From assembly GCF_900100205.1 (NCBI RefSeq), contig NZ_FNEQ01000008.1:1-64000 (forward strand): a stretch of DNA of 64,000 bases. The letters run 5' to 3'. This document shows positions 2,281-12,895 of the stretch, in pieces. Under the pieces are notes generated by a model. It saw only the letters and a program-made list of their open reading frames with translations, searched no databases and was not told where the DNA came from. Source of the stretch: Duganella sp. OV510. GTDB taxonomy: Bacteria; Pseudomonadota; Gammaproteobacteria; Burkholderiales; Burkholderiaceae_D. Numbering within the stretch: position 1 is the first letter of the stretch; every line of letters starts with the position of its first letter. The position numbers and the translations under genes are program-made.

Positions 2281-3456
2281 ATGCTGCGCTTCCCAAGTAA
2301 AACCGCTCCGCTAATACTTGAAGACTTTCTCCGCGAAATTCGGTTGGATGAGGCCGCCTCGCTAAGCTTGCCGATTAAGCTCGATATGGGGGGCGCTCTG
2401 GGCGCGGCAAACCTAGCAGTCCAAATTGTTGCAACCTGGGCTCGTACACGCTCTGCCAGCACGACGCTCAATCTTAATCGGGCGTTTGCTGAGAATGAAG
2501 CGACTCGAGCGCGCTTCGCTTCTACCTTGCCAGGGATGGCGGCACTGTACTTCGCTGAGTCGGTAGAGTGCGAACAACGCACGATGGACCGGTTCCATGC
2601 GCTAACCGCAGTCGTGCCTTACGTCGAGGCCATGCAGCAGGAAGATTACGCGAATACACTGCGCGGTATCGGCGCGGCGCTTTGCTGCTTCGCTGGCGCT
2701 CGAAACGAGTTCCTGAAGCCGCTCTACGCTGTACCCGCACCGCAAGGGGTCAATTCAGAATCGGTCTTTCGCGTTCTCATCCCGCGCATGCTCGAAGCGC
2801 TCAACAGCGGCCGAACCTTCGCAATCAACGAGGGGCAGTTGGACTATCTGAGCGCCATGGTGTATCAGCTCTTTTTAAATTCAGACCAGCACGGGGCCTA
2901 TGACATCCGAGGTGGCAGATACAAAGTTGGGATGCGAGGAATTTCTGCACGCCTGACTTCGCTTCAGGACCTTCCTACTATTGTCGCCAATGCCGGCGAT
3001 GATCCACACCTACGTTCCTACCTGTCACGCGCTGCGTCAAAGTCAGCCATGCCGGCTGCCAAGACGATCAAGTCCGCCCATCAACAGATGCAAATTTTGG
3101 AAATTTCAGTCTTCGACACGGGACCTGGACTGGCGCTGCGGTGGTTAGGAGACAAAAAAGGGGCAACAAGATATGACGACTTCTCTCTCGATGAAGAATT
3201 AGAAGCAGTCCAAACCTGCTTTGAGAAACATACTTCAACTAAGGCGGGTAATCTGTACGGGCAAGGACTTCCCGTTGCGTTACGTGCTTTGCAGCAGCTC
3301 AAAGCATTCATGACACTCAGAACCGGCCGCCTTAGTTTGTATCAGGACTTCTCCCACTCCAAGACGGCGGACTTCGTCCCGCAGCGTCGTTTCCAGGGCA
3401 AGGACCTTGCTGAGATTGCTGGTGCAACTTACACCATCTGGTTTAGGGTGAGATAG
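2281..3456 (+). CDS. GHKL-family ATPase-like protein
   Basis: This 391-residue protein carries the three landmarks of a Bergerat (GHKL) ATP-binding fold. An N-box-like LFLNSDQHG lies near residue 199, a G1 box VFDTGPGL near 278, and a G2-type YGQGLPVAL near 325 after a KHTST stretch. The first 190 residues are alpha/beta and unassigned. There is no phospho-acceptor His box or receiver, so a sensor kinase is unlikely; GHKL proteins of this build are known from MORC/Hsp90-like conflict systems and topoisomerase-like ATPases. The stop at 3454-3456 is one base from the ATG of the next gene, which indicates translational coupling. The ATG at 2281 lacks a clear ribosome binding site. The ATPase-fold call is fairly secure; the role is inference. 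Confidence 0.7.
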   Translation: MLRFPSKTAPLILEDFLREIRLDEAASLSLPIKLDMGGALGAANLAVQIVATWARTRSASTTLNLNRAFAENEATRARFASTLPGMAALYFAESVECEQRTMDRFHALTAVVPYVEAMQQEDYANTLRGIGAALCCFAGARNEFLKPLYAVPAPQGVNSESVFRVLIPRMLEALNSGRTFAINEGQLDYLSAMVYQLFLNSDQHGAYDIRGGRYKVGMRGISARLTSLQDLPTIVANAGDDPHLRSYLSRAASKSAMPAAKTIKSAHQQMQILEISVFDTGPGLALRWLGDKKGATRYDDFSLDEELEAVQTCFEKHTSTKAGNLYGQGLPVALRALQQLKAFMTLRTGRLSLYQDFSHSKTADFVPQRRFQGKDLAEIAGATYTIWFRVR

Positions 3457-3457
3457 T

Positions 3458-5710
3458 ATGCTGGGAAACGCAGGTTACTTCCGATATCAGTTCCCGGCCG
3501 TCGTTTCGGTTGGCGAATTGCGCTTTAACGTCATCTATAAGCCACCGGGCGTGGTCCGCAGCGATGTCCTTGAAGACTTGGTCATCGACGTCTGTGGTGG
3601 GCCGTTAGTTCCGGATGCGTTGGTTTTTGTGAGCTTGTTCGAGGACGACTACGGTTCACTGCCACAAGTGCTACGTGGACCTGGCGGACACGCGGCCCGC
3701 ACTCGGTTAGCACACCGCATCCCACTGGTGTGTACGACGTTCTCCCTGATCACTGGTGCGGTCGTCGCCGAGGTAATCAATGATGGATTTGCTCAACAGG
3801 TCCGTAAGAACATCACCGACGAGGTCAAACGCCAGTTTGATGCTATTTTAAAGGCTGGACTACCGGCCGCGTTCCCAGAAGAGCATGTCCTACTTTCTGC
3901 GCCTCCAGGGTACTCCTACCAAAAGCCGTCGGGCGCTAGGTATGACACCTTCCTCAAGCCAGAGATGGGCTTGACGACCTCTGCAGCAGTCGGCTTTGTT
4001 GCCCTGCATCTGTTTAACGAATTCTTTGGTGGGCGACTCGCTCGGTTGAAGCAGCTTCGCACCATCTACGTGGATACCATGGCAATCGCGCCGCTAGCAT
4101 ACGGGATTCGGGAGCTGATTGTACTTAGTGGCCATCGCGTGATGGCATCGATAGAGAGCTTTCACTCATATGAGGGTTTCGACAGCGTCGCACGACCATT
4201 GCGCGGCACGTCCATTTGCCTGATTTCCGCGTCCTCGTCCATGGCCCTGCATCGACGCTGGGTCAACGAGAAACTGGTTGATCATTCCGATGTCGTGACG
4301 CTTTTGACGTTTGAAGCGGCGCCCAACCAGACACCGCCTGGCGCGTTGTTGGCCATTCCACGACCGGGGAGTAGGGCATCAGAAGGCCCTCCCCAGTTGG
4401 TGATCCGCATCAAGGGTGAGACGTTTCAGGCGATTCAGGAGCCGGACAAGAAAGTGTTGTTGCGCGAGCAGATCCACGGGGCGAGGAAAGAAGTCAAACT
4501 ATTCCGTGAACTGGCGGGAAAAGGCATCTTCGACCTTTGGCGTCGCCCTGGATCCGCAAATTCGAAAATACGTGCACTGTACGTCGATGGCACAGTTCTC
4601 CTGCAGCACAAACAATTCCAGGATTGGCTAGCACTGCATTTACCGCGTCGGGTCCGGGCATCGACCACTCAGATCATATATCAGTCCGATGCTGCCTCGC
4701 GTACCATGGCTGAATACGTCGCTGGATACTGCGCCAACATACTGCATTTGAAGCCCACTCCTGCCACGCTTGATGCTGCGGCCCTTAACAGTATTCGAGA
4801 AATCACATCCGACAATCTGATCATTTGCGCTGCGGTTGTAGGGAAGGGATCGCAATTGCTGGATATCAGCCGAAATCTGCGTGATATTCACGATGGCTCT
4901 CGTCTCTACATGATTGGTTTTCAAGTCACCGAAACGCGCAGTGAGTTGGTCAGCTTGCCCGCGAATTTGCGTCACGACGGTGTGCTGCCGCACGAAGTGA
5001 GCCGATTCGGAGAGGCGGCTATCGGCACGCAACTCGCGGCTAGCTACCATTTAGAGCGAAAGCGTCTATTCCCCGGGGATCAAGATCGCCGCACGATGCC
5101 TGACCAATTAAGGGAGCGAAGCGAGCGATTGGGTGAAACTTTGCCCATCCAGTCGCAAGCGTTGCTTCCGCACGGCGCCAATGTTGACCAAGCGATGCAA
5201 ATCAGGGAAGGGTGGGCATTCTGGGCCGGCGGCAAGTATCAACCCGGTCCTTACCACGCAGAAGTCTGTGCGACGACAGCAGTTTTGCTGCAGCGCGCAC
5301 GAGAAGATACGAAGACTGTCCCCGAAGAGCACAGTCTGGGAAGCCGAACGTTCCGCCATGTGGTACTTGATCCAGAAAATTTCGCGCGGTTCAACGATGG
5401 CATCCTTCAAGCGGCGTTGCTGCGATGCGCGTTCGCTTCCGAGCTGGACTTTCGAGCGGACCTGGCAGCCTCTGACTTTATGAAGTCGCTGATCATCCGA
5501 GCGCTGCAACGTTCTCCTACAACTGATGGTGAAGCGGTCTTGGAGTTTATTGCCGCGCTTGCCAGCCAGAAGTTGCAGCTGATGCCCGATCACCAGGCAG
5601 AAGTCTATGCGGTGGCCGAACGGGAAACCCACGCTTACCCCGCATTGCATGGCGTAGTGCTGCATTTATTACACGGTCCTAAAAACTCAAGTGGTAGTTC
5701 ACCGATTTGA
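3458..5710 (+). CDS. Large partner of the GHKL protein, PRTase-like patterns
   Basis: This 750-residue cytosolic protein is not recognised as a named family. Two stretches look like phosphoribosyltransferase-type alternating strand-loop-helix units. One contains ICLISASSSMALHRRW near residue 255. The other is LIICAAVVGKGSQLLDISRN near residue 455, where a hydrophobic strand is followed by a VGKGSQ loop at the place of a PRPP loop. The acidic pair usual before that loop is replaced by AA, so PRPP chemistry may be lost. The last 130 residues are largely helical. It follows the GHKL gene by one base, with the preceding GAGATAG as a possible ribosome binding site. The two proteins probably work together, perhaps as ATPase plus nucleotide-binding effector. 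Alternative: an unrelated alpha/beta fold. Confidence 0.6.
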   Translation: MLGNAGYFRYQFPAVVSVGELRFNVIYKPPGVVRSDVLEDLVIDVCGGPLVPDALVFVSLFEDDYGSLPQVLRGPGGHAARTRLAHRIPLVCTTFSLITGAVVAEVINDGFAQQVRKNITDEVKRQFDAILKAGLPAAFPEEHVLLSAPPGYSYQKPSGARYDTFLKPEMGLTTSAAVGFVALHLFNEFFGGRLARLKQLRTIYVDTMAIAPLAYGIRELIVLSGHRVMASIESFHSYEGFDSVARPLRGTSICLISASSSMALHRRWVNEKLVDHSDVVTLLTFEAAPNQTPPGALLAIPRPGSRASEGPPQLVIRIKGETFQAIQEPDKKVLLREQIHGARKEVKLFRELAGKGIFDLWRRPGSANSKIRALYVDGTVLLQHKQFQDWLALHLPRRVRASTTQIIYQSDAASRTMAEYVAGYCANILHLKPTPATLDAAALNSIREITSDNLIICAAVVGKGSQLLDISRNLRDIHDGSRLYMIGFQVTETRSELVSLPANLRHDGVLPHEVSRFGEAAIGTQLAASYHLERKRLFPGDQDRRTMPDQLRERSERLGETLPIQSQALLPHGANVDQAMQIREGWAFWAGGKYQPGPYHAEVCATTAVLLQRAREDTKTVPEEHSLGSRTFRHVVLDPENFARFNDGILQAALLRCAFASELDFRADLAASDFMKSLIIRALQRSPTTDGEAVLEFIAALASQKLQLMPDHQAEVYAVAERETHAYPALHGVVLHLLHGPKNSSGSSPI

Positions 5711-5732
5711 AGATGAAGGTGTTTTGGCGCGC

Positions 5733-5840
5733 TAGCTTGTGGCCAGACGAAGCGCCCGCGCTCAAACCGCTTGGCTAACAGGCACTGGTCATCATCTGTC
5801 CACCACAGTAAATTGATGAGGTCGCTGCGTCGCCCTCGGT
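5733..5840 (-). pseudogene. tnpB: Relic of IS66 tnpB, 3' half
   Basis: Read leftward, the strand encodes RGRRSDLINLLWWTDDD and then [14 protein letters not shown]. This matches the second half of the TnpB in the intact element ([17 protein letters not shown], then [14 protein letters not shown]). Similarity stops near 5733 and no tnpC follows, so the older copy is truncated on this side. The matching 5' half lies at 12516-12654, on the other side of the 6.67-kb transposon. Confidence 0.8.
5833..5840. repeat. Target-site duplication, left copy
   Basis: The octamer CCCTCGGT directly abuts the left end of the transposon. The identical octamer abuts the right end at 12508-12515. Eight bases is the duplication length made by IS66-family transposases. 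Confidence 0.9.
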
Positions 5841-5879
5841 GTAAGCGTCAGCCCTGTACCGTCTTGATCCGACCGAAAA
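5841..5879 (+). repeat. Left terminal inverted repeat of the transposon
   Basis: It begins GTAAGCGTCAGCCCTGTACC and continues through CGTCTTGATCCGACCGAAAA. The outer 24 bases match the right end with two differences; the inner part resembles the internal end at 10037. Confidence 0.85.
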
Positions 5880-5967
5880 ATTGCTTTCCGGGAAGCTTCT
5901 AGGGCAAGCTTCTTAAGTCGCCGAATCGATGAAGCGTTCGGCCTGTCCACGATGGTCAGCACAGTCA

Positions 5968-6855
5968 CTATGCACCCCGGAGTTTCTGCGTGGCTTTTAG
6001 AATATCCCTGGAAGGCGGCAGGCCGAACAGGCGAGCATATTCCCGGCTGAACTGATTCGGGCTTTCGTAGCCGACGCTGAATGCGATCGACGTCGCGCTG
6101 CCTTGGCCGGCGATCAGTTGTGAACGCGCGTGTAACAAGCGGATGCGCTTCTGATATTGCAGCGGGCTCAACGATGTCACCGCTTTGAAATGACGATGGA
6201 ATGCTGAAACGCTTAATGCCGCCATCTCAGCCAGTGCGTCCACCCTCATCTGTTCGGTAAAGTTGCGACGTATCCAATTGATGGCAACACCGATACGCGC
6301 GAGCGCCGTGTCCGGCGATGCGATGTCTCGCAGCATCCAGCCGAGCGGCCCCTGAAGCACGCGGAATAATATTTCCCGTTCATAACAAGGCGCGAGCACC
6401 GCGATCTCGTCAGGTCGTTCGATTAGCCTGAGCATTCGAATCCAAGCATCGAGAAGCTCGCCACTGACCGGCGCAACCGAAAATCCTGATCCGAACAGCG
6501 TGCCGCAGACCTCAGACGGCAAGTCGCGGATTAACGCCGCGACGATAGCGGAGTCGAGAGTCAGGCTCACTGCAAGATACGGCTCGCCCGTGGCGGCGGG
6601 ATGAACTGACCCGACGGCGGGAAGATCCACGGACATGACGAAGTAGGTTGCCGGATCATAGTGAAAGCTCCGGTCACCAACGGTCATGGTCTTGGATCCC
6701 GTGAGAATCAGGTTGACCATAGGAGCATAGACGGCGGCGAGCATATGCTCCGGGATTTCACCCTGGACCATTGCGACACGCGGGATACCGGTTTCCGTGC
6801 GTTTGTTCTCGGCCCTGGAGGCCAGCGCTCTCAGTTCTTGCAATTGCTGTTCCAT
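5968..6855 (-). CDS. AraC-family transcriptional regulator
   Basis: This 295-residue regulator has an N-terminal AraC_N-type sensing half (about 20-175, with a cupin-like HYDPATYFVMS strand) and a C-terminal pair of helix-turn-helix motifs. The first reads MRVDALAEMAALSVSAFHRH near residue 205 and the second is an IAFSVGYESPNQFSREYARL type near 260. The layout fits the YqhC-like group that commonly controls neighbouring aldehyde or short-chain dehydrogenases. It is divergent from the SDR gene, and the 139-base gap between them probably holds both promoters. It lies within the IS66-type transposon as a passenger gene and most likely controls the five genes that follow it. Confidence 0.9.
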   Translation of the reverse strand: MEQQLQELRALASRAENKRTETGIPRVAMVQGEIPEHMLAAVYAPMVNLILTGSKTMTVGDRSFHYDPATYFVMSVDLPAVGSVHPAATGEPYLAVSLTLDSAIVAALIRDLPSEVCGTLFGSGFSVAPVSGELLDAWIRMLRLIERPDEIAVLAPCYEREILFRVLQGPLGWMLRDIASPDTALARIGVAINWIRRNFTEQMRVDALAEMAALSVSAFHRHFKAVTSLSPLQYQKRIRLLHARSQLIAGQGSATSIAFSVGYESPNQFSREYARLFGLPPSRDILKATQKLRGA

Positions 6856-6994
6856 CGTCCGACATTAACAGATCTTCGCCCAGACATGCAATGCGAAAGC
6901 AGAAATAGGCAAGCTTGGAGGAAGATTGGGTGAGTGCGGCGTCGGCGGCACTCGTATCATTGCCCTCACCATACAGACACACAGGAGAGTCGTA

Positions 6995-7738
6995 ATGAAG
7001 ATTGTCATCGTGACCGGGAGCAGCCGTGGCCTTGGCGCCAGCACCGCACTCGAATGCGCCAAGCGTGGAATGGGCGTGATCGTCACCTACAACAGTAATC
7101 CAGAAAAGGCGGAACAGGTCGTGAAAGACATCACCGGGATCGGTGCGAAGGCGGTCGCTCTGAAACTCGACGTTGGTGACAGTCGATCGTTTCCCGATTT
7201 CCGAAAATCGGTTTCTGCACAGCTCAACGACGTGTGGAACAGGGAGACCTTCGACTTCCTTGTCAACAACGCTGGGTACGGGCTGTATGCGCCGATCTCG
7301 GAGGTAACCGAGGAGCAATTCGAAGGCTTGTTTAACGTCCACCTCAAGGGGCCGTTCTTCCTGACACAGACGCTGCTGCCGCTCATCGAAGTCGGCGGCC
7401 ACGTGATCAACGTCACCAGCGCCACCAGCCGCGTTGCCACTGCGGGCGTGGCGCCTTACGCCGCCTTCAAAGGCGGTCTGCAGGTTCTAACGCGCTACAT
7501 GGCCAAGGAATTCGGCGAACGCCGAATTCGGGCGAACTCGATCGCGCCGGGCGCGATCCGCACTGAGCTTGGCGGTGGATTGAGCGAGGATTTCGAGGCG
7601 ATGCTTGCGGATCAGACGGCGCTCGGCAGGGTTGGTGAGCCGCAAGAGGTCGGTGGCGTCATCGCCGCCTTACTGTCCGAGGAGAACCGCTGGATCAACG
7701 CCCAAAACATCGAAGTAGCGGGCGGCTACATTATCTGA
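6995..7738 (+). CDS. Short-chain dehydrogenase/reductase
   Basis: This is a classical SDR of 247 residues. It has the cofactor motif TGSSRGLGAS near residue 7, the NNAG motif, a catalytic Ser in NVTSATSR and the active-site YAAFK. An earlier in-frame start at 6926 was rejected: the ATG at 6995 follows AGGAGAG by six bases and begins the first beta strand directly (MKIVIVTGSS). The reaction is an NAD(P)-dependent carbonyl/alcohol conversion on an unknown substrate. It is the first gene of a rightward cluster with the VOC, saccharopine-dehydrogenase-like and SnoaL-like genes, spaced by 1-16 bases at first. Confidence 0.9.
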   Translation: MKIVIVTGSSRGLGASTALECAKRGMGVIVTYNSNPEKAEQVVKDITGIGAKAVALKLDVGDSRSFPDFRKSVSAQLNDVWNRETFDFLVNNAGYGLYAPISEVTEEQFEGLFNVHLKGPFFLTQTLLPLIEVGGHVINVTSATSRVATAGVAPYAAFKGGLQVLTRYMAKEFGERRIRANSIAPGAIRTELGGGLSEDFEAMLADQTALGRVGEPQEVGGVIAALLSEENRWINAQNIEVAGGYII

Positions 7739-7754
7739 ATCAGGAGAAAGCATC

Positions 7755-8150
7755 ATGCTCGACCACGTCTTCATATCCGTCAGCGATATTGATCGCTCGA
7801 TCGACTTCTATGAAAAGGCACTCGCACCGCTTGGGATTGCCCATGCGCTTGATTACGACGGCCGGCAAGGCCCTGCCGGCCACCCCGATCTCAAGGGGTT
7901 CGGCGCGAGCGGTCGCGTGTTCTTCTGGCTGCGAGAAGGTACGGTAGAGGGCCGCGCCGCGCATGTGGGTTTCGTCGCGAATGACAAGAGCGCGGTCGAT
8001 GCGGCCTTCGCGGCGTCAATGGCTGCAGGTGCCACCGAAATCCATCCGCCCGGACCGCAGCTTCACTATGACCCGCGCTACTACGCGGCTCAGGTTCGCG
8101 ACCCGGACGGCTATAGCCTGGAATTCGTCTACAAGGAATGGCAGCATTAA
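7755..8150 (+). CDS. VOC-family (glyoxalase/bleomycin-resistance fold) protein
   Basis: This 131-residue protein has the glyoxalase fold. MLDHVFISVSDIDRSIDFYE is the typical first beta-alpha unit with a metal-ligand His, and VRDPDGYSLEFVYK is the usual last strand with the metal-ligand Glu. An AGGAGAAAG precedes the ATG. Members are metal-dependent isomerases, dioxygenases or drug-binding proteins; the substrate cannot be told. It lies in the passenger operon, one base before the ATG of the next gene. Confidence 0.9.
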   Translation: MLDHVFISVSDIDRSIDFYEKALAPLGIAHALDYDGRQGPAGHPDLKGFGASGRVFFWLREGTVEGRAAHVGFVANDKSAVDAAFAASMAAGATEIHPPGPQLHYDPRYYAAQVRDPDGYSLEFVYKEWQH

Positions 8151-8151
8151 T

Positions 8152-9135
8152 ATGAAGAAACTGATGATTTATGGCGCGACGGGCTACACCGGTCGCATGG
8201 CGGCGGAACGCGCCTCGGCAGCGGGCACGCCGCTCATCCTGGCAGGACGCAACGAGGCTGCGCTCGTATCGCTCGCCACAAGCCTCGATGTCGAATACCG
8301 GGTCTTCCCGCTCAAAGACATTGCCGTGATTGATCGATCACTGCGCGGCGTCGCCGTCCTCCTCAATTGCGCGGGGCCATTCGTCAGGACCGCCGATGTC
8401 CTGATGAGAGCCGGCATTCGCAATGGCGTGCATTATCTGGACGTCGCTGCGGAACTTGACGGCTATCGACTGGCCGAAGTGCTCGACGTCAAGGCCAGAG
8501 CTGCAGGTGTGATGCTTCTGCCAGGCAGCGGTGGCAGCGTTGCGATGCTTGGTTGCCTTGCCGGGCACACCGTTGCGAGAACGAGTAATCCATTGAGCCT
8601 TAGCGTGGCCATGCATGTCGCGGGTGGTCTATCGAGAGGCTCAGCCGTCAGCGCAATGGGAAGCGTCACCGCCGAAACGCTAGCACGCGCCGACGGCACG
8701 CTCGTTGCCCAAACTGCCGGAACGATCCGGAAACTCGACTTCGGCAAGGGGCCCGTCGACTGCTTCCAGGTGACGCTTCCCGATCTCATCACGATCTGGC
8801 GCTCGACCAACATTCCTAATATTGCAGCGTTCGTCCACCTGTCAGGTATCGGATTTCCACAAGGTGATCTCTTGGCGCTTCCCGATGGACCGAGTGAGCA
8901 GGAACGGTTGGCCAATCGGTATCAGGCCGTTGTCGAAGTCACCAGTTCCGACGGCAATGTCGTGCGATCGGTTCTCGATACGGTCAACGGCTACACGTTC
9001 ACGGCAAGCGCTGCGGCGGAGGCAGGCCGCCGCGTTCTCGCCGGTGAGAATCGTCCGGGCTTCCAGACCCCTGCGATGCTGTTCGGCAACGGCTTTGCCG
9101 GGACGATCGCTGACACCACCATCGTCGACTTCTGA
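8152..9135 (+). CDS. Saccharopine dehydrogenase-like NAD(P)-binding protein
   Basis: The start at 8152 gives 327 residues beginning MKKLMIYGATGYTGRMAAER, a Rossmann strand with the GATGYTG loop of the trans-acting enoyl-reductase/saccharopine dehydrogenase-like family. A second marker is LLNCAGPFVRTADVLMRAGI near residue 65, then HYLDVAAELD. A longer in-frame opening at 7963 lies inside the VOC gene and is rejected. The substrate is unknown; such proteins often act on quinone- or lipid-like carbonyls. It is translationally close to the VOC gene and belongs to the passenger operon. Confidence 0.85.
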   Translation: MKKLMIYGATGYTGRMAAERASAAGTPLILAGRNEAALVSLATSLDVEYRVFPLKDIAVIDRSLRGVAVLLNCAGPFVRTADVLMRAGIRNGVHYLDVAAELDGYRLAEVLDVKARAAGVMLLPGSGGSVAMLGCLAGHTVARTSNPLSLSVAMHVAGGLSRGSAVSAMGSVTAETLARADGTLVAQTAGTIRKLDFGKGPVDCFQVTLPDLITIWRSTNIPNIAAFVHLSGIGFPQGDLLALPDGPSEQERLANRYQAVVEVTSSDGNVVRSVLDTVNGYTFTASAAAEAGRRVLAGENRPGFQTPAMLFGNGFAGTIADTTIVDF

Positions 9136-9144
9136 GGAGCAACC

Positions 9145-9471
9145 ATGGAGAAGCTCGTTGCTACATTCATACAAACCGTCAACGCCTTCGACGTCGAAGG
9201 CGCGTTAGCCATGTTTAAGTCCGATGCAGTCATCGACGACGTTTCGGTTGGGCGCGCCTTCGTCGGCGCCGATGGGATTCGCCTTTACCTTGAGCAGTTC
9301 TTCGTAGGTTATAAAACCGTCAGCAAACTTCTGTCGCTGGAGCCGCTGGACGATTTCGCAGCAATTGTTCGCGTCGATTTCACCGGCGACTTTGGCCACG
9401 AGACCGGGTCTCTGAGAATCAAAATTAGCTCTGACGGTCTGATCGAACGCATCAAGGCCAATCTCGACTAA
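9145..9471 (+). CDS. SnoaL-like (NTF2 fold) protein 1
   Basis: This 108-residue protein has the NTF2/SnoaL layout: helix FIQTVNAFDVEGALAMFKSD, strand with AVIDDVSVGR, then FVGADGIRLYLEQFF, and antiparallel strands ending LIERIKANLD. Members are small hydrolases, isomerases or ligand-binding proteins. An AGGAGCAACC precedes the ATG, ten bases after the preceding stop. The substrate is unknown. Confidence 0.8.
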   Translation: MEKLVATFIQTVNAFDVEGALAMFKSDAVIDDVSVGRAFVGADGIRLYLEQFFVGYKTVSKLLSLEPLDDFAAIVRVDFTGDFGHETGSLRIKISSDGLIERIKANLD

Positions 9472-9563
9472 CGACCACAGAAAACACCAAATTGCGCTTG
9501 CAAGAGCGCGAATGCCGGAGATGGCTTCACTTTGCAAGCCTCCGGAACACCAAGGGAATACTT

Positions 9564-10034
9564 ATGACCATATCACCATCTCTCACCAACGAGGCCGCAG
9601 ACAAGCTTGCGGTCGTCGACGCCCTCTATCGTTTTGCCGCTGGCATCGATCTTCGCGACAAGAGCCTTCTGTCGTCCGCTCTTGCAGAAAACGCTGTATC
9701 GGACTTTGGTCCGGCTGCGGCCAAAGCCGGGTTTGAATATCCGGTTATCGAGGGCCGGGATATTATTGTTGCGACCCTTACAGCGTCTCTCTCGAAATTG
9801 GATACGACGCACTCTGTGACGAATCCGCGTGTCACTATCAACGGTGACACGGCGCGCTTGGACGCACTTGTGGAAGCCCAGCATGTCTCCCGGGATGATC
9901 ATACCCTCAGCTATCTCATGAAGAACCGTTACGATGTCGAGCTTGTAAGGATGGGCGACGGCTGGGTCATCACGCGTAACACGGTCGACAACGTCTGGCG
10001 TTCTGGAGATATTTCTGTTCTTTCTGCCATATAG
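9564..10034 (+). CDS. SnoaL-like (NTF2 fold) protein 2
   Basis: The ATG at 9564 opens MTISPSLTNEAADKLAVVDA and gives 156 residues; AAGGGAATACTT upstream supports it over the open frame from 9492. The helix DALYRFAAGIDLRDKSLLSS, the IEGRDIIVATL helix and the closing GWVITRNTVDNVWRSGD are typical of the SnoaL_4/ring-hydroxylating-dioxygenase-beta-like group. It is the last passenger gene. Three bases after its stop lies the internal IS66-end-like sequence at 10037. Confidence 0.8.
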   Translation: MTISPSLTNEAADKLAVVDALYRFAAGIDLRDKSLLSSALAENAVSDFGPAAAKAGFEYPVIEGRDIIVATLTASLSKLDTTHSVTNPRVTINGDTARLDALVEAQHVSRDDHTLSYLMKNRYDVELVRMGDGWVITRNTVDNVWRSGDISVLSAI

Positions 10035-10036
10035 AC

Positions 10037-10077
10037 GTAGCCGCACTCCCAGCGCTGTCTTGATCGGCCGAGCGAAA
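10037..10077 (+). repeat. Internal IS66-end-like sequence
   Basis: GTAGCCGCACTCCCAGCGCT followed by GTCTTGATCGGCCGAGCGAA resembles the left transposon end at 5841, most clearly over GTCTTGATC-G-CCGA. It lies 38 bases past the end of tnpC, where the end of an ordinary IS66 would be. I read it as the former or second left end of the core element; the outermost bases differ from the active ends. Confidence 0.6.
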
Positions 10078-10114
10078 AGCCAGATGATGCTCGCACAACG
10101 CTGGGAAGCGGAAT

Positions 10115-11677
10115 TTAGCCGGCGAGCTTGGCGGCACAGTTCCAAGGTAGAAAGACGTGCACCCGGTTGACGGGATGCTCTGCGATGCGCTCTAGCACGT
10201 GGCGCAGCCAAGCTTCGGGGTCAACCCCGTTCAGCTTGGCGGTGCCGATCAGCGAGTAAACCGCTGCGGCCCGCTCGCCGCCACTGTCGGCGCCGGCGAA
10301 CAAGTAGTTGCGGCGGCCGATGGCAATGCCGCGTAGCGCCCGTTCGGCTGCCGAGTTGTCGATCTCGATGGCGCCATCATCGCAGTAGCGTGTCAGTGCC
10401 GGCCACAGATTGAGCGAGTACAGAATGGCTGCCGAGGCATCGGATTTGCGCGACAGCTTCTCAAGCGCGGCGCGTAGCCAGCGTTCAAGGTCGTCGAGCA
10501 AGGGTCTGGCCCTGGTTTGCCTGGCTTGTCGTCGTTGATCGGGAGGCTTGCCTCGGATATCGGCCTCGATGACGTAGAGCTCGGCGATTCTGCGTAGCGC
10601 TTCCGTCGTGAGCGCCGAAGGCCGCGCTTCATGCAGGTCATAGAATTTGCGCCGGGCATGAGCCCAGCATGCGGCTTCGTGGATCGCGCCGTTTTCGTAA
10701 AGCGCGTTGAAACCGGCATAGGCATCGGCTTGCAGCACGCCACTGAAACCAGTCAGGTGGGTTTGTGGATGGACGCCTTTGCGATCCGGCGAGTAGGCGA
10801 ACCAGACAGCGGCTGGCGCCGTGTCGCCGCTTGGCCGGTCATCGCGCACGTACGTCCACAGCCGCGCAGTTTTAGTTTTGCCATTGCCCGGAGCGAGCAC
10901 CGGGATCGGCGTGTCGTCGGCATGCAACTTGGTGGCGGCCAGCACGTGGCGCCGGATGGCATCGACCAACGGGCGCAACAAGGCGCTGGCGGCACCAACC
11001 CAGCTTGCCAGCAGTGCGCGATCCAGATCCACGCCTTCCCGTGCATAGATCACGCTCTGGCGGTAGAGCGGCAAGTGGTCGGCGAACTTCGCCACCAGGA
11101 CATGTGCCAGCAAACCGGGGCCGGCGATGCCGCGTTCGATCGGGCGGCTCGGCGCCGGCGCTTGCACGATGGCGTCGCAGCAGCTGCAAGCAAGCTTGGG
11201 GCGCACATGGCGAATTACTCGGAAACTGGCCGGTACATATTCGAGCTGTTCGGCCACGTCCTCACCCAAAAAGCGCAGTCCACCACCGCAAGACGGGCAC
11301 GCGTCGGCGGCGGGCAGATGGACCTTTTCATCGCGAGGAAGGTGGTCAGGCAGCGGCTTGCGTACAGGCTTGTTGCGTGGCGCCCGGTCAGTTTCAGGTA
11401 TCGCCTTCACCACTTCGCCTTCATCGGCTTGCAGACCTTCCAGTTGCAGTTCCAGCTGCTCGATCTGGTGGTCCAGTTTCTCGGACTTGCGGCCGAACTG
11501 CATGCGCCGCAGCTTGGCGATCCACAGCTTGAGATGCTCGATCTCGGCGGCGCGCGTGTTCAACTGCGCTTCCAGCCCTGCGACTTGGTCATCGCGCTCT
11601 TGAACGCGACGTTCGCTTGCCAATAGCAATGCCTTCAGGGCAGCGATATCGTCAGGGAGGTCGGCGGCAGTGAGCAT
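10115..11677 (-). CDS. tnpC: IS66-family transposase TnpC
   Basis: This is the 520-residue IS66 transposase. It has an N-terminal coiled-coil helix (residues 10-85) that includes [15 protein letters not shown] zinc-ribbon follows ([15 protein letters not shown], later ACSCCDAIV), then the DDE core: Asp in [12 protein letters not shown], Asp in [14 protein letters not shown], and Glu in [16 protein letters not shown]. All core motifs are present, so the enzyme looks intact. It acts with TnpA and TnpB on the ends at 5841 and 12507. It reads leftward, as do tnpA and tnpB. Confidence 0.95.
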
Positions 11678-11706
11678 GAAGCAAGTTTACGCGAGGCCGA
11701 TGACGT

Positions 11707-12053
11707 TTACAAGGCCGACGTCGGCCGCCAGGTGCGCTCTGGTCGGCGCCAGTCGATTCCCTCCAACAGCATGAAAGCTGGGCTTGCGTCAGTGCCACGC
11801 TACCGCTGTCGGCCTGCGGCCAGACGAAGCGTCCCCGCTCAAGACGCTTGGCCAGCAAGCACAGGCCATCGCCAGTCCACCACAGCACCTTAATCATGTC
11901 GCCGCGCCGGCCACGGAACACGAAGACGTGGCCGCTGAAAGGATCTTCGGCCAGCGCAGTCTCCACCTTGGCCGCCAGCCCGTTCATGCCAGCGCGCATA
12001 TCGGTGATGCCGGCGGCGAGCCAGATCCGGGTGCTGGCAGGAAGGCCAATCAT
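11707..12053 (-). pseudogene. tnpB: IS66 TnpB accessory protein, frameshifted near the end
   Basis: It opens [20 protein letters not shown] and carries the family core ([17 protein letters not shown], then [13 protein letters not shown]). After ALTQAQLS the frame is wrong. Shifting by one base near 11772 restores [15 protein letters not shown] and a TAA at 11707, giving the normal 115 residues. As written, the frame runs on for 18 extra residues (133 in total) into tnpC. A single missing base explains this, either real decay or a sequencing error. The start overlaps the stop of tnpA by four bases, as usual in IS66. Confidence 0.85.
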
Positions 12054-12424
12054 GCGCGCAGGCTTTGCAGTACCAGCCGCAGCAACGCCGCGTCCGCGCC
12101 GGCGCAGACTCGCACAGTGGCATCGGCAATGGTGATCTCGATAGCACCCCCGCGAGCGGCGCCGCTGGCCGGCTTTGCTGCCGGTGAAGACGGCTTCAGC
12201 AATACCGGCAGCAGCTTGGTTTCACTCGTGGCCGGCCCGGTCAGCAGGCCGGCGCGCAGGTCGCGCCGCCATTTGAACAGCATGTTGGTGTTGATGCCAT
12301 GATCCTGGGCCAGTTTCGATACCGAAACGACAGGCTCGCATGCCGCCACCGCGAGTCGATGTTTAAACTCGGGCGAATAGTTTGGCCGTCCTCTACGATT
12401 GCCCGACTCCACTTCAGTGTCCAC
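12050..12424 (-). CDS. tnpA: IS66 TnpA accessory protein
   Basis: This 124-residue protein has an IS66/IS3-type helix-turn-helix ([16 protein letters not shown], then [20 protein letters not shown]). It ends in a beta-rich tail with [20 protein letters not shown] that is typical of IS66 TnpA. It is the first gene of the tnpA-B-C operon. A long perfect hairpin (12425-12458) lies immediately upstream of its ATG. Confidence 0.9.
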
Positions 12425-12458
12425 AGTAGTTCCCGCTAAAAAAGTAACGGGAACTACT
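12425..12458. promoter_or_regulatory. Perfect 11-bp hairpin in the tnpA leader
   Basis: AGTAGTTCCCG and CGGGAACTACT pair across a 12-base A-rich loop directly upstream of tnpA. It would form in the transcript entering from the right end and could hide the tnpA start from read-through messages or terminate them. The function is inference. Confidence 0.5.
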
Positions 12459-12482
12459 TTGGCAGATGCTACTCGCTATGAA

Positions 12483-12507
12483 CAGACGGTGCAGGGCCGA
12501 CGCTTAC
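12483..12507 (-). repeat. Right terminal inverted repeat of the transposon
   Basis: On the minus strand it reads GTAAGCGTCGGCCCTGCACC followed by GTCTG, matching the left end at 5841 except at positions 10, 17 and the last base. Confidence 0.85.
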
Positions 12508-12515
12508 CCCTCGGT
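12508..12515. repeat. Target-site duplication, right copy
   Basis: CCCTCGGT lies directly outside the right transposon end and is identical to 5833-5840. Confidence 0.9.
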
Positions 12516-12895
12516 GCGCAAAAACACGTTATCGCTGAACGGATCGTCCTCCAGCGCCGTCTGCACTTTCGCAGCTAGGCCATTGAAGCCGGAGCGCATG
12601 TCTGTGATGCCGGGCGGCGAGCCAGACTTTATTGCCGGCGGGGAGGCCGATCATCGCAGCACCCGGTCCAACACCTGCGCCAATATGGACCTTCGATCCG
12701 AACGCGGACCTCGCCCAACTCAAACACGATATTGCCGCCGACATCGGAGCTGCTATTGCTCGGTGCAGGCCGTTGGCGCCAACACCACCGGCAACAGGTC
12801 ATCGTCTCGCATCAATGCAGGTACGCCAAGGCGTCCTTGTTGATACAGCCGACGCCAGCTGATGACTCGGTTATTGATTTGCACGAACTTTTGAC
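12516..12895 (-). pseudogene. Relic of an older IS66: tnpB 5' half and tnpA
   Basis: Reading leftward from about 12895 there are pieces of TnpA (INNRVISWRRLYQQGRLGVP, then DDDLLPVVLAPT, then ELGEVRVRIEGP) in shifting frames. The tnpB start follows at 12654 (MIGLPAGNKVWLAA, then after a frameshift a TALEDDPFSDNVFLR stretch). The tnpB text breaks exactly at the transposon border and resumes at 5840. The relic therefore predates the 6.67-kb insertion. It has several frameshifts and stops and cannot be functional. Confidence 0.8.

Follow-up and report, generated by a model that had tools for sequence, protein, structure and literature searches.

A six-gene operon inside an IS66-family element of Duganella sp. 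OV510: likely capture through a more distant end

Insertion sequences (IS) of the IS66 family are recognized by ends starting with GTAAGCGTC and by an 8-bp target duplication. In a 64,000-nucleotide stretch of the genome of Duganella sp. OV510 (contig NZ_FNEQ01000008.1, positions 1 to 64,000; hereafter the window), a segment of 6,667 bp at 5841–12507 shows both features and also holds six genes other than those for transposition, which raises the question of how a whole operon came to lie inside the ends of an IS66 element and whether it has moved with them. We consider it likely that the segment is a tIS66, an IS66-family element that mobilized a self-contained, regulator-controlled six-gene operon, and that it arose by capture through a more distant end. 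Ends, duplication, empty target, gene content and the decayed third end are the features of the sequence from which this model starts; the steps that join them are given below in conditional form.

The segment is a single IS66-family unit. Its termini, GTAAGCGTCAGCCCTG at 5841–5856 on the forward strand and GTAAGCGTCGGCCCTG at 12492–12507 on the reverse strand, are inverted and identical at 15 of 16 bases, and each is abutted exactly by a copy of CCCTCGGT, a perfect 8-bp duplication (Table 1). Ends of the GTAAGCGTC type and 8-bp duplications also occur in the neighboring IS66 copies. A search of the 64 kb for the inverted repeat (IR) pattern with up to 3 mismatches gave 4 matches, a number unremarkable in itself (shuffles gave a mean of 1.27, and 8 of 100 reached 4); the only mismatch-free matches are the two ends of the unit. 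The outer-end pattern (up to 2 mismatches) is present in 17 of 392 genomes of the family, the reversed-control columns being without matches. The sequence-only reading of this locus had proposed an IS66-type unit at 5841–12507 with inverted ends and a perfect 8-bp duplication, and direct inspection of ends and flanks bears this out.

When the flanks are joined computationally with a single copy of the duplication retained, they are identical at 220 of 251 positions to an intact IS66 tnpB from another genome of the genus, and the alignment spans the junction with 3 gap positions, the nearest being a 2-base gap about 8 bp to the right of it; the element therefore sits within an older IS66 remnant. 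As read against other IS66 copies, the joined flanks are a virtual empty site; the earlier reading had proposed to look for an empty-site tnpB in relatives. An orthologous empty locus was not detected when window positions 2281–5840 were compared with 73 other genomes of the genus (E ≤ 1e-20): matches occurred in 7 of the 73 and were confined to the last 110 bases of the query, that is, to the tnpB remnant. The adjoining stretch 2281–5710 contains two neighboring open reading frames (ORFs) of 391 and 750 amino acids (aa) without a Pfam match, and has no DNA match in the same 73 genomes at this threshold.

Given the 8-bp duplication, the unit has moved at least once. As IS66 matches are numerous in the genomes of the genus, one might think of a chance neighborhood, a gene cluster lying between two unrelated IS66 ends; against this stand the perfect duplication located exactly at both ends and the uninterrupted tnpB match obtained once the flanks are joined. 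The duplication and the empty site contradict such an assembly of IS66 fragments, and we regard it as highly improbable.

Table 1. Features of the IS66-family unit and its insertion site in the window
Feature	Position	Strand	Basis
Older IS66 tnpB remnant, left part (target)	5735..5832	-	Sequence matches, junction alignment
Target-site duplication, left copy CCCTCGGT	5833..5840	.	Direct reading
Outer IS66 end, tnpC-proximal type, GTAAGCGTCAGCCCTG...CCGTCTTGATC	5841..5869	+	End-profile score 38.0
Non-coding stretch, outer end to araC	5870..5967	.	Weak likeness to Janthinobacterium relics, within shuffle range
Cargo 1: AraC-type regulator (AraC_N + HTH_18), 295 aa	5968..6855	-	Pfam
Conserved operator-like site GAAAGCAGAAATAGGCAAG, regulator-enzyme intergenic	6895..6913	+	Alignment, pattern search
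Cargo 2: short-chain dehydrogenase/reductase (SDR), adh_short_C2, 247 aa	6995..7738	+	Pfam
Cargo 3: VOC/glyoxalase-fold protein (Glyoxalase), 131 aa	7755..8150	+	Pfam
Cargo 4: saccharopine-dehydrogenase-like NAD(P)-binding protein (Sacchrp_dh_NADP), 327 aa	8152..9135	+	Pfam
Cargo 5: SnoaL_2 (NTF2-like), 108 aa	9145..9471	+	Pfam, 28.3 bits (cut-off 27)
Cargo 6: SnoaL_4 (NTF2-like), 156 aa	9564..10034	+	Pfam
Decayed internal IS66 end, probably the former tnpC-side terminus	10037..10065	+	End-profile score 19.2
tnpC, DDE transposase, 520 aa	10115..11677	-	Pfam, NCBIfam NF033517
tnpB, C-terminal part out of frame relative to intact relative	11652..12053	-	Pfam, frame comparison
tnpA, 124 aa	12050..12424	-	NCBIfam NF047595
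Terminal inverted repeat, tnpA side	12492..12507	-	IR pattern match
Target-site duplication, right copy CCCTCGGT	12508..12515	.	Direct reading
Older IS66 tnpB remnant, right part (target)	12516..12660	-	Sequence matches, junction alignment

The transposition genes and the cargo are both recognizable by protein family. According to Pfam and NCBIfam models, the element is a member of the IS66 family: Pfam identifies the three IS66 proteins (DDE_Tnp_IS66, TnpB_IS66 and HTH_Tnp_1), TnpC matches PF03050 with an E value of 1.7e-104 and NF033517 with 494.9 bits (cut-off 180), and the accessory proteins TnpA and TnpB are identified by NF047595 (97.2 bits, cut-off 74) and NF033819 (120.6 bits, cut-off 50). 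Between tnpC and the far end lies a six-gene operon (5968–10034), and the Pfam domains of its six products agree with the earlier claim of six non-transposition genes inside the ends, including a regulator and oxidoreductases. The SDR matches solved carbonyl and ketoacyl reductases; among the matches listed, none of the cargo proteins reaches the cut-off of an NCBIfam family (for the SDR, 25 of 226 families).

The operon seems to carry its own control. In the intergenic region between the regulator and the first enzyme gene an operator-like site is present, the AGGCA core of which is invariant across 32 aligned intergenic regions (30 genome loci, the window and a second copy in the same genome, C10), and its pattern has a single match in the window at up to 3 mismatches. 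The AraC-type regulator is predicted to bind this site.

A third end, located between the cargo and tnpC and starting 2 bp past the stop codon of the last cargo gene, suggests how the unit arose. With a profile built from 19 IS66 ends, this inner sequence scores 19.2 at 10037, a value reached by none of 300 shuffles of the flank, and the outer end scores 38.0. The profile was applied to 17 chosen cargo loci: four of them (the window and the Janthinobacterium loci L066, L067 and L069) have ends in the same orientation on both sides of the cargo, and the other 13 have no comparable ends, the best other score being 4.7 (right side of the end-less locus L059, p 0.047, as expected given the number of tests). 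The position of the inner sequence is also about that of a standard IS66 terminus. Among 37 tnpC copies (C-terminus-reaching matches, identical 3′ ends collapsed, the window included), 29 have an end-like match 83–111 bp beyond the tnpC match, and the inner sequence lies at 81 bp by the same measure. It is therefore probable, on sequence and spacing, that 10037–10065 is the relic of the former tnpC-side terminus of the element. The outer end is likewise of the tnpC-proximal type and points in the same direction as the inner relic; a similar sequence terminates the tnpC side of IS66 copies whose tnp genes are full-length, among them locus L134.

The capture model can be put as follows. An ordinary IS66 element of 2.47 kb (10037–12507) would have been present directly downstream of the operon, and beyond the regulator gene there would have been another IS66 end, also of the tnpC-proximal type. 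Once the inner end had decayed or was skipped, TnpC would have used the far end and the whole 6.67 kb would have moved, inserting into the old tnpB remnant; in the unit so formed, the AraC-type regulator would act at 6895–6913 and switch on the SDR reductase, the VOC protein, the saccharopine-dehydrogenase-like protein and the two NTF2-like proteins.

The source of the far end may be specified further. In a variant of the capture model, the operon once lay between two equally oriented IS66 copies, of which the left one was later lost by deletion except for its end; the unit as it is now would move as a single tIS66. The type of the outer end and its direction, shared with the inner relic, are those expected for tandem IS66 copies, and the two ends of ISPa75, a Pseudomonas element, likewise resemble different IS66 elements (PMC12888890, in the part available). 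On the other hand, no transposase match occurs between 5841 and the cargo, the outer stretch used as a query recovered (best 14 matches) besides itself only Janthinobacterium outer ends, over 43 bp, and the tnpB remnant to the left of 5841 is the insertion target and thus external to the unit. We hold this composite origin to be conceivable but somewhat doubtful. The unit is not itself a composite transposon with two complete flanking IS copies, because it contains one IS66 body and no transposase match from the outer end to the cargo.

Several points weigh against the capture model or limit its reach. The resemblance of the inner relic to an IS66 end is partial, and the relic is too decayed for the end pattern of the spacing survey, which missed it. 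The survey sample is itself biased, as some of it was fetched by an end pattern, and one of its matches at least (L025) is doubtful. The far end, moreover, may have come by a different route. The tnpB frame diverges near its 3′ end from that of an intact relative, and the element may be dead; this departure makes present activity doubtful unless related proteins act in trans. A second intact unit was not found in the genome of OV510, in 73 other genomes of the genus (best 4 candidates scored per genome), in 399 genomes of the order (an even draw from a larger group, E ≤ 1e-200 only) or in 72,556 plasmid records, none of which contained 80% of the query in one place. On the side of the cargo, the saccharopine-dehydrogenase-like protein and both NTF2-like proteins have no NCBIfam model at E ≤ 0.001, and the role of the operon, probably that of an inducible detoxification or catabolic module, is read from families alone; at a guess from the enzyme families, the substrate would be an aldehyde, a ketone or another carbonyl compound.

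The view that the cassette moves as a portable unit is consequently sustained for the past, through the ends, the duplication and the empty site, and not for the present, given the apparent tnpB frameshift and the lack of a second intact copy in the sequences searched. The sequence-only reading had itself listed the absence of a second copy of the whole unit as telling against it, and for the intact unit this is what the genome, genus, order and plasmid searches returned. It had also suggested a search for the same ends with other flanks, which yielded three broken units in Janthinobacterium with differing bases beside the outer end, and none that is intact.

The operon has a wider distribution than the element. 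The search of 392 family genomes was made with the cargo alone as query, and 39 genome loci were retrieved by means of the saccharopine-dehydrogenase-like protein; the core four genes are present in 30 of the 39 and all six in 8, and IS66 transposase matches occur at three (L066, L067 and L069). The operon is also found without IS66 in many Proteobacteria. Plasmids carry it in Paraburkholderia caribensis and, lacking the last gene, in Agrobacterium vitis. On the large P. caribensis plasmid (L098) the six-gene operon is located near a tyrosine recombinase gene and has no IS66 end-like matches. The genome of OV510 (6,428,745 bases, 28 contigs) contains the second cargo copy, C10, with 87% identity; its similarity to the window ends at the first and last stop codons, no IS66 end-like match was found alongside it in the end-profile scan, and SDR- and MFS-like fragments (among the matches listed) adjoin its araC gene, resembling genes that neighbor the operon at certain other loci. 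Passenger genes in the same order at a fixed chromosomal site without the ends had been named as an outcome that would speak against the unit; genes so ordered and without the ends do occur elsewhere, C10 included, though not demonstrably at one fixed site. No paper combining 4 of 5 cargo-gene terms was found in the literature.

The three Janthinobacterium loci (3 of 40 genomes) share with the window the arrangement, in both order and orientation, of an outer end, the six-gene cargo (the last gene truncated in L066) and an inner end. They differ from it in their decayed ends, in transposase genes that are mostly lost and in a cargo that is not the sister of the window's. Their outer ends lack the canonical start (GA in place of GT), and the 8 bases beside them differ from those of the window; behind the inner end lies a tnpC remnant in L066 and L069, and in L067 a stretch of 134 bp resembling the L066 end region. 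Because the three also have in common several hundred bases adjoining the outer end on its left, they may descend from one insertion. In L066 (10470–10490) the truncation of the last cargo gene falls precisely on the inner IS66 end and could represent an IS-driven adjacent deletion.

Whether the Duganella and Janthinobacterium elements go back to one capture or to two is the point on which junctions and trees disagree. An ancient single capture giving rise to the elements of both groups, with end-less copies such as C10 having lost their ends or with cargo exchanged by recombination, is favored by the same operon in the same orientation and by near-identical junctions: the inner end lies at the last stop codon (2 bp past it in the window and with an overlap in L067 and L069; in L066 the last gene is truncated), and the outer end is 127 bp from araC in the window versus about 135–141 bp in the relics. 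The outer non-coding stretch beyond its first 40 bp adds a weak likeness that is statistically within shuffles (scores of 11.5, 10.0 and 12.5 versus maxima of 12.5, 14.0 and 14.0 in 200 shuffles). Against it, the cargo tree joins the window with the end-less C10 and the Janthinobacterium relics with D. levis, each pairing with a support of 100/100, and a forced clade of the four end-bearing cargos is rejected for the whole cargo (approximately unbiased test, p-AU 1.2e-5), in a test chosen after an earlier tree of 21 loci had been seen and made on a tree of 13 loci.

The conflict is not confined to one part of the cargo. The window and C10 pair in all four segments (supports 94/98, 97/98, 83/81 and 96/95), and the forced clade is rejected or disfavored in each (p 0.042, 3e-57, 6e-5 and 5e-5), the weakest value being that of columns 0–750 and the last two segments having only 12 and 9 rows. 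Identity along the cargo forms a mosaic: the relic L069 and the end-less operon of D. levis, L063, are about 90–94% identical at alignment columns 750–2250 and 73–82% elsewhere, so that columns 750–2250 look like a recombined segment. The idea that one recombined segment alone produced the conflict was discarded, since the pairing of the window with C10 holds in all four segments. C10 itself, with no end-like match and with the SDR- and MFS-like fragments alongside, also argues against one capture; its descent from the window element was likewise set aside for want of an end-like match beside it, although the ends may have been lost. The trees and the near-identical junctions could be reconciled if ends were lost or cargo was exchanged by recombination, and two captures, or one capture plus either process, are possible. 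We give a single ancient capture slightly less than even chances. A broader proposition is that IS66 transposases take whole operons when they bypass their own tnpC-side end and use a second end of the same type, that the three-end anatomy is the signature of this process, and that Oxalobacteraceae acquired the same regulator-plus-enzyme operon in two or more independent events, with an almost identical junction at the last stop codon each time; on the present evidence this appears unlikely.

Among known systems, the classic IS66 elements of Oxalobacteraceae (e.g., L011, L017, L018, L021 and L100) resemble the unit in their tnpABC-type body, GTAAGCGTC ends and matching 8-bp duplications. They differ in their size of about 2.45–2.5 kb and in an end located 83–111 bp from the tnpC match, which leaves no room for a passenger. 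One of them, L100, on a plasmid of Massilia sp. WG5, is a standard IS66 with an 8-bp duplication that covers most of the transposase part of the window; its neighbors are annotated as phthalate- and aromatic-type degradation functions. Elsewhere in the genus an IS66 copy of about 3.6 kb (L013/L131, G072:C36; L013 ends at 294 and 3876) has a matching 8-bp duplication, ACAGATTG, and about 1.1 kb beyond tnpC with an ORF of 139 aa without a Pfam match at E ≤ 0.001; it is probably a second tIS66 in the genus.

The expectation that IS66 elements usually hold only tnpA, tnpB and tnpC needs to be qualified, since passengers were known already. According to the available part of PMC12888890, the sole clear tIS66 study found, passengers are present in 7 of the 25 ISfinder entries for IS66 elements of Pseudomonas (tIS66), and the IS66 element ISPa75 has fosZ downstream of its transposase; in PMC7371123 and PMC11092175 the available passages concern subjects other than IS66 cargo. 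With non-transposition genes inside its ends and downstream of tnpC, the Duganella unit fits the known tIS66 kind. ISPa75 is like it in having IS66 tnpA, tnpB and a DDE transposase, a passenger downstream of the transposase, a GTAAGCGTC-type end on one side, two ends of different resemblance, as noted above, and chromosomal relatives of its cargo outside IS elements. It differs in its length of 2,996 bp and single passenger gene, compared with 6,667 bp and six genes including a regulator, in its spread (fosZ within ISPa75 in 159 strains versus one full-length unit here) and in that the available part of PMC12888890 describes no inner relic end. What the unit adds is an operon-sized, self-regulated cargo together with an inner relic end. 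The tIS66 kind is thereby extended from the single passenger gene of ISPa75, as far as that source goes, to a complete regulated operon, the decayed inner end near its expected place offers a readable trace of how an IS may become a transposon, and the Janthinobacterium relics provide a comparison set for one capture with later exchange versus repeated capture.

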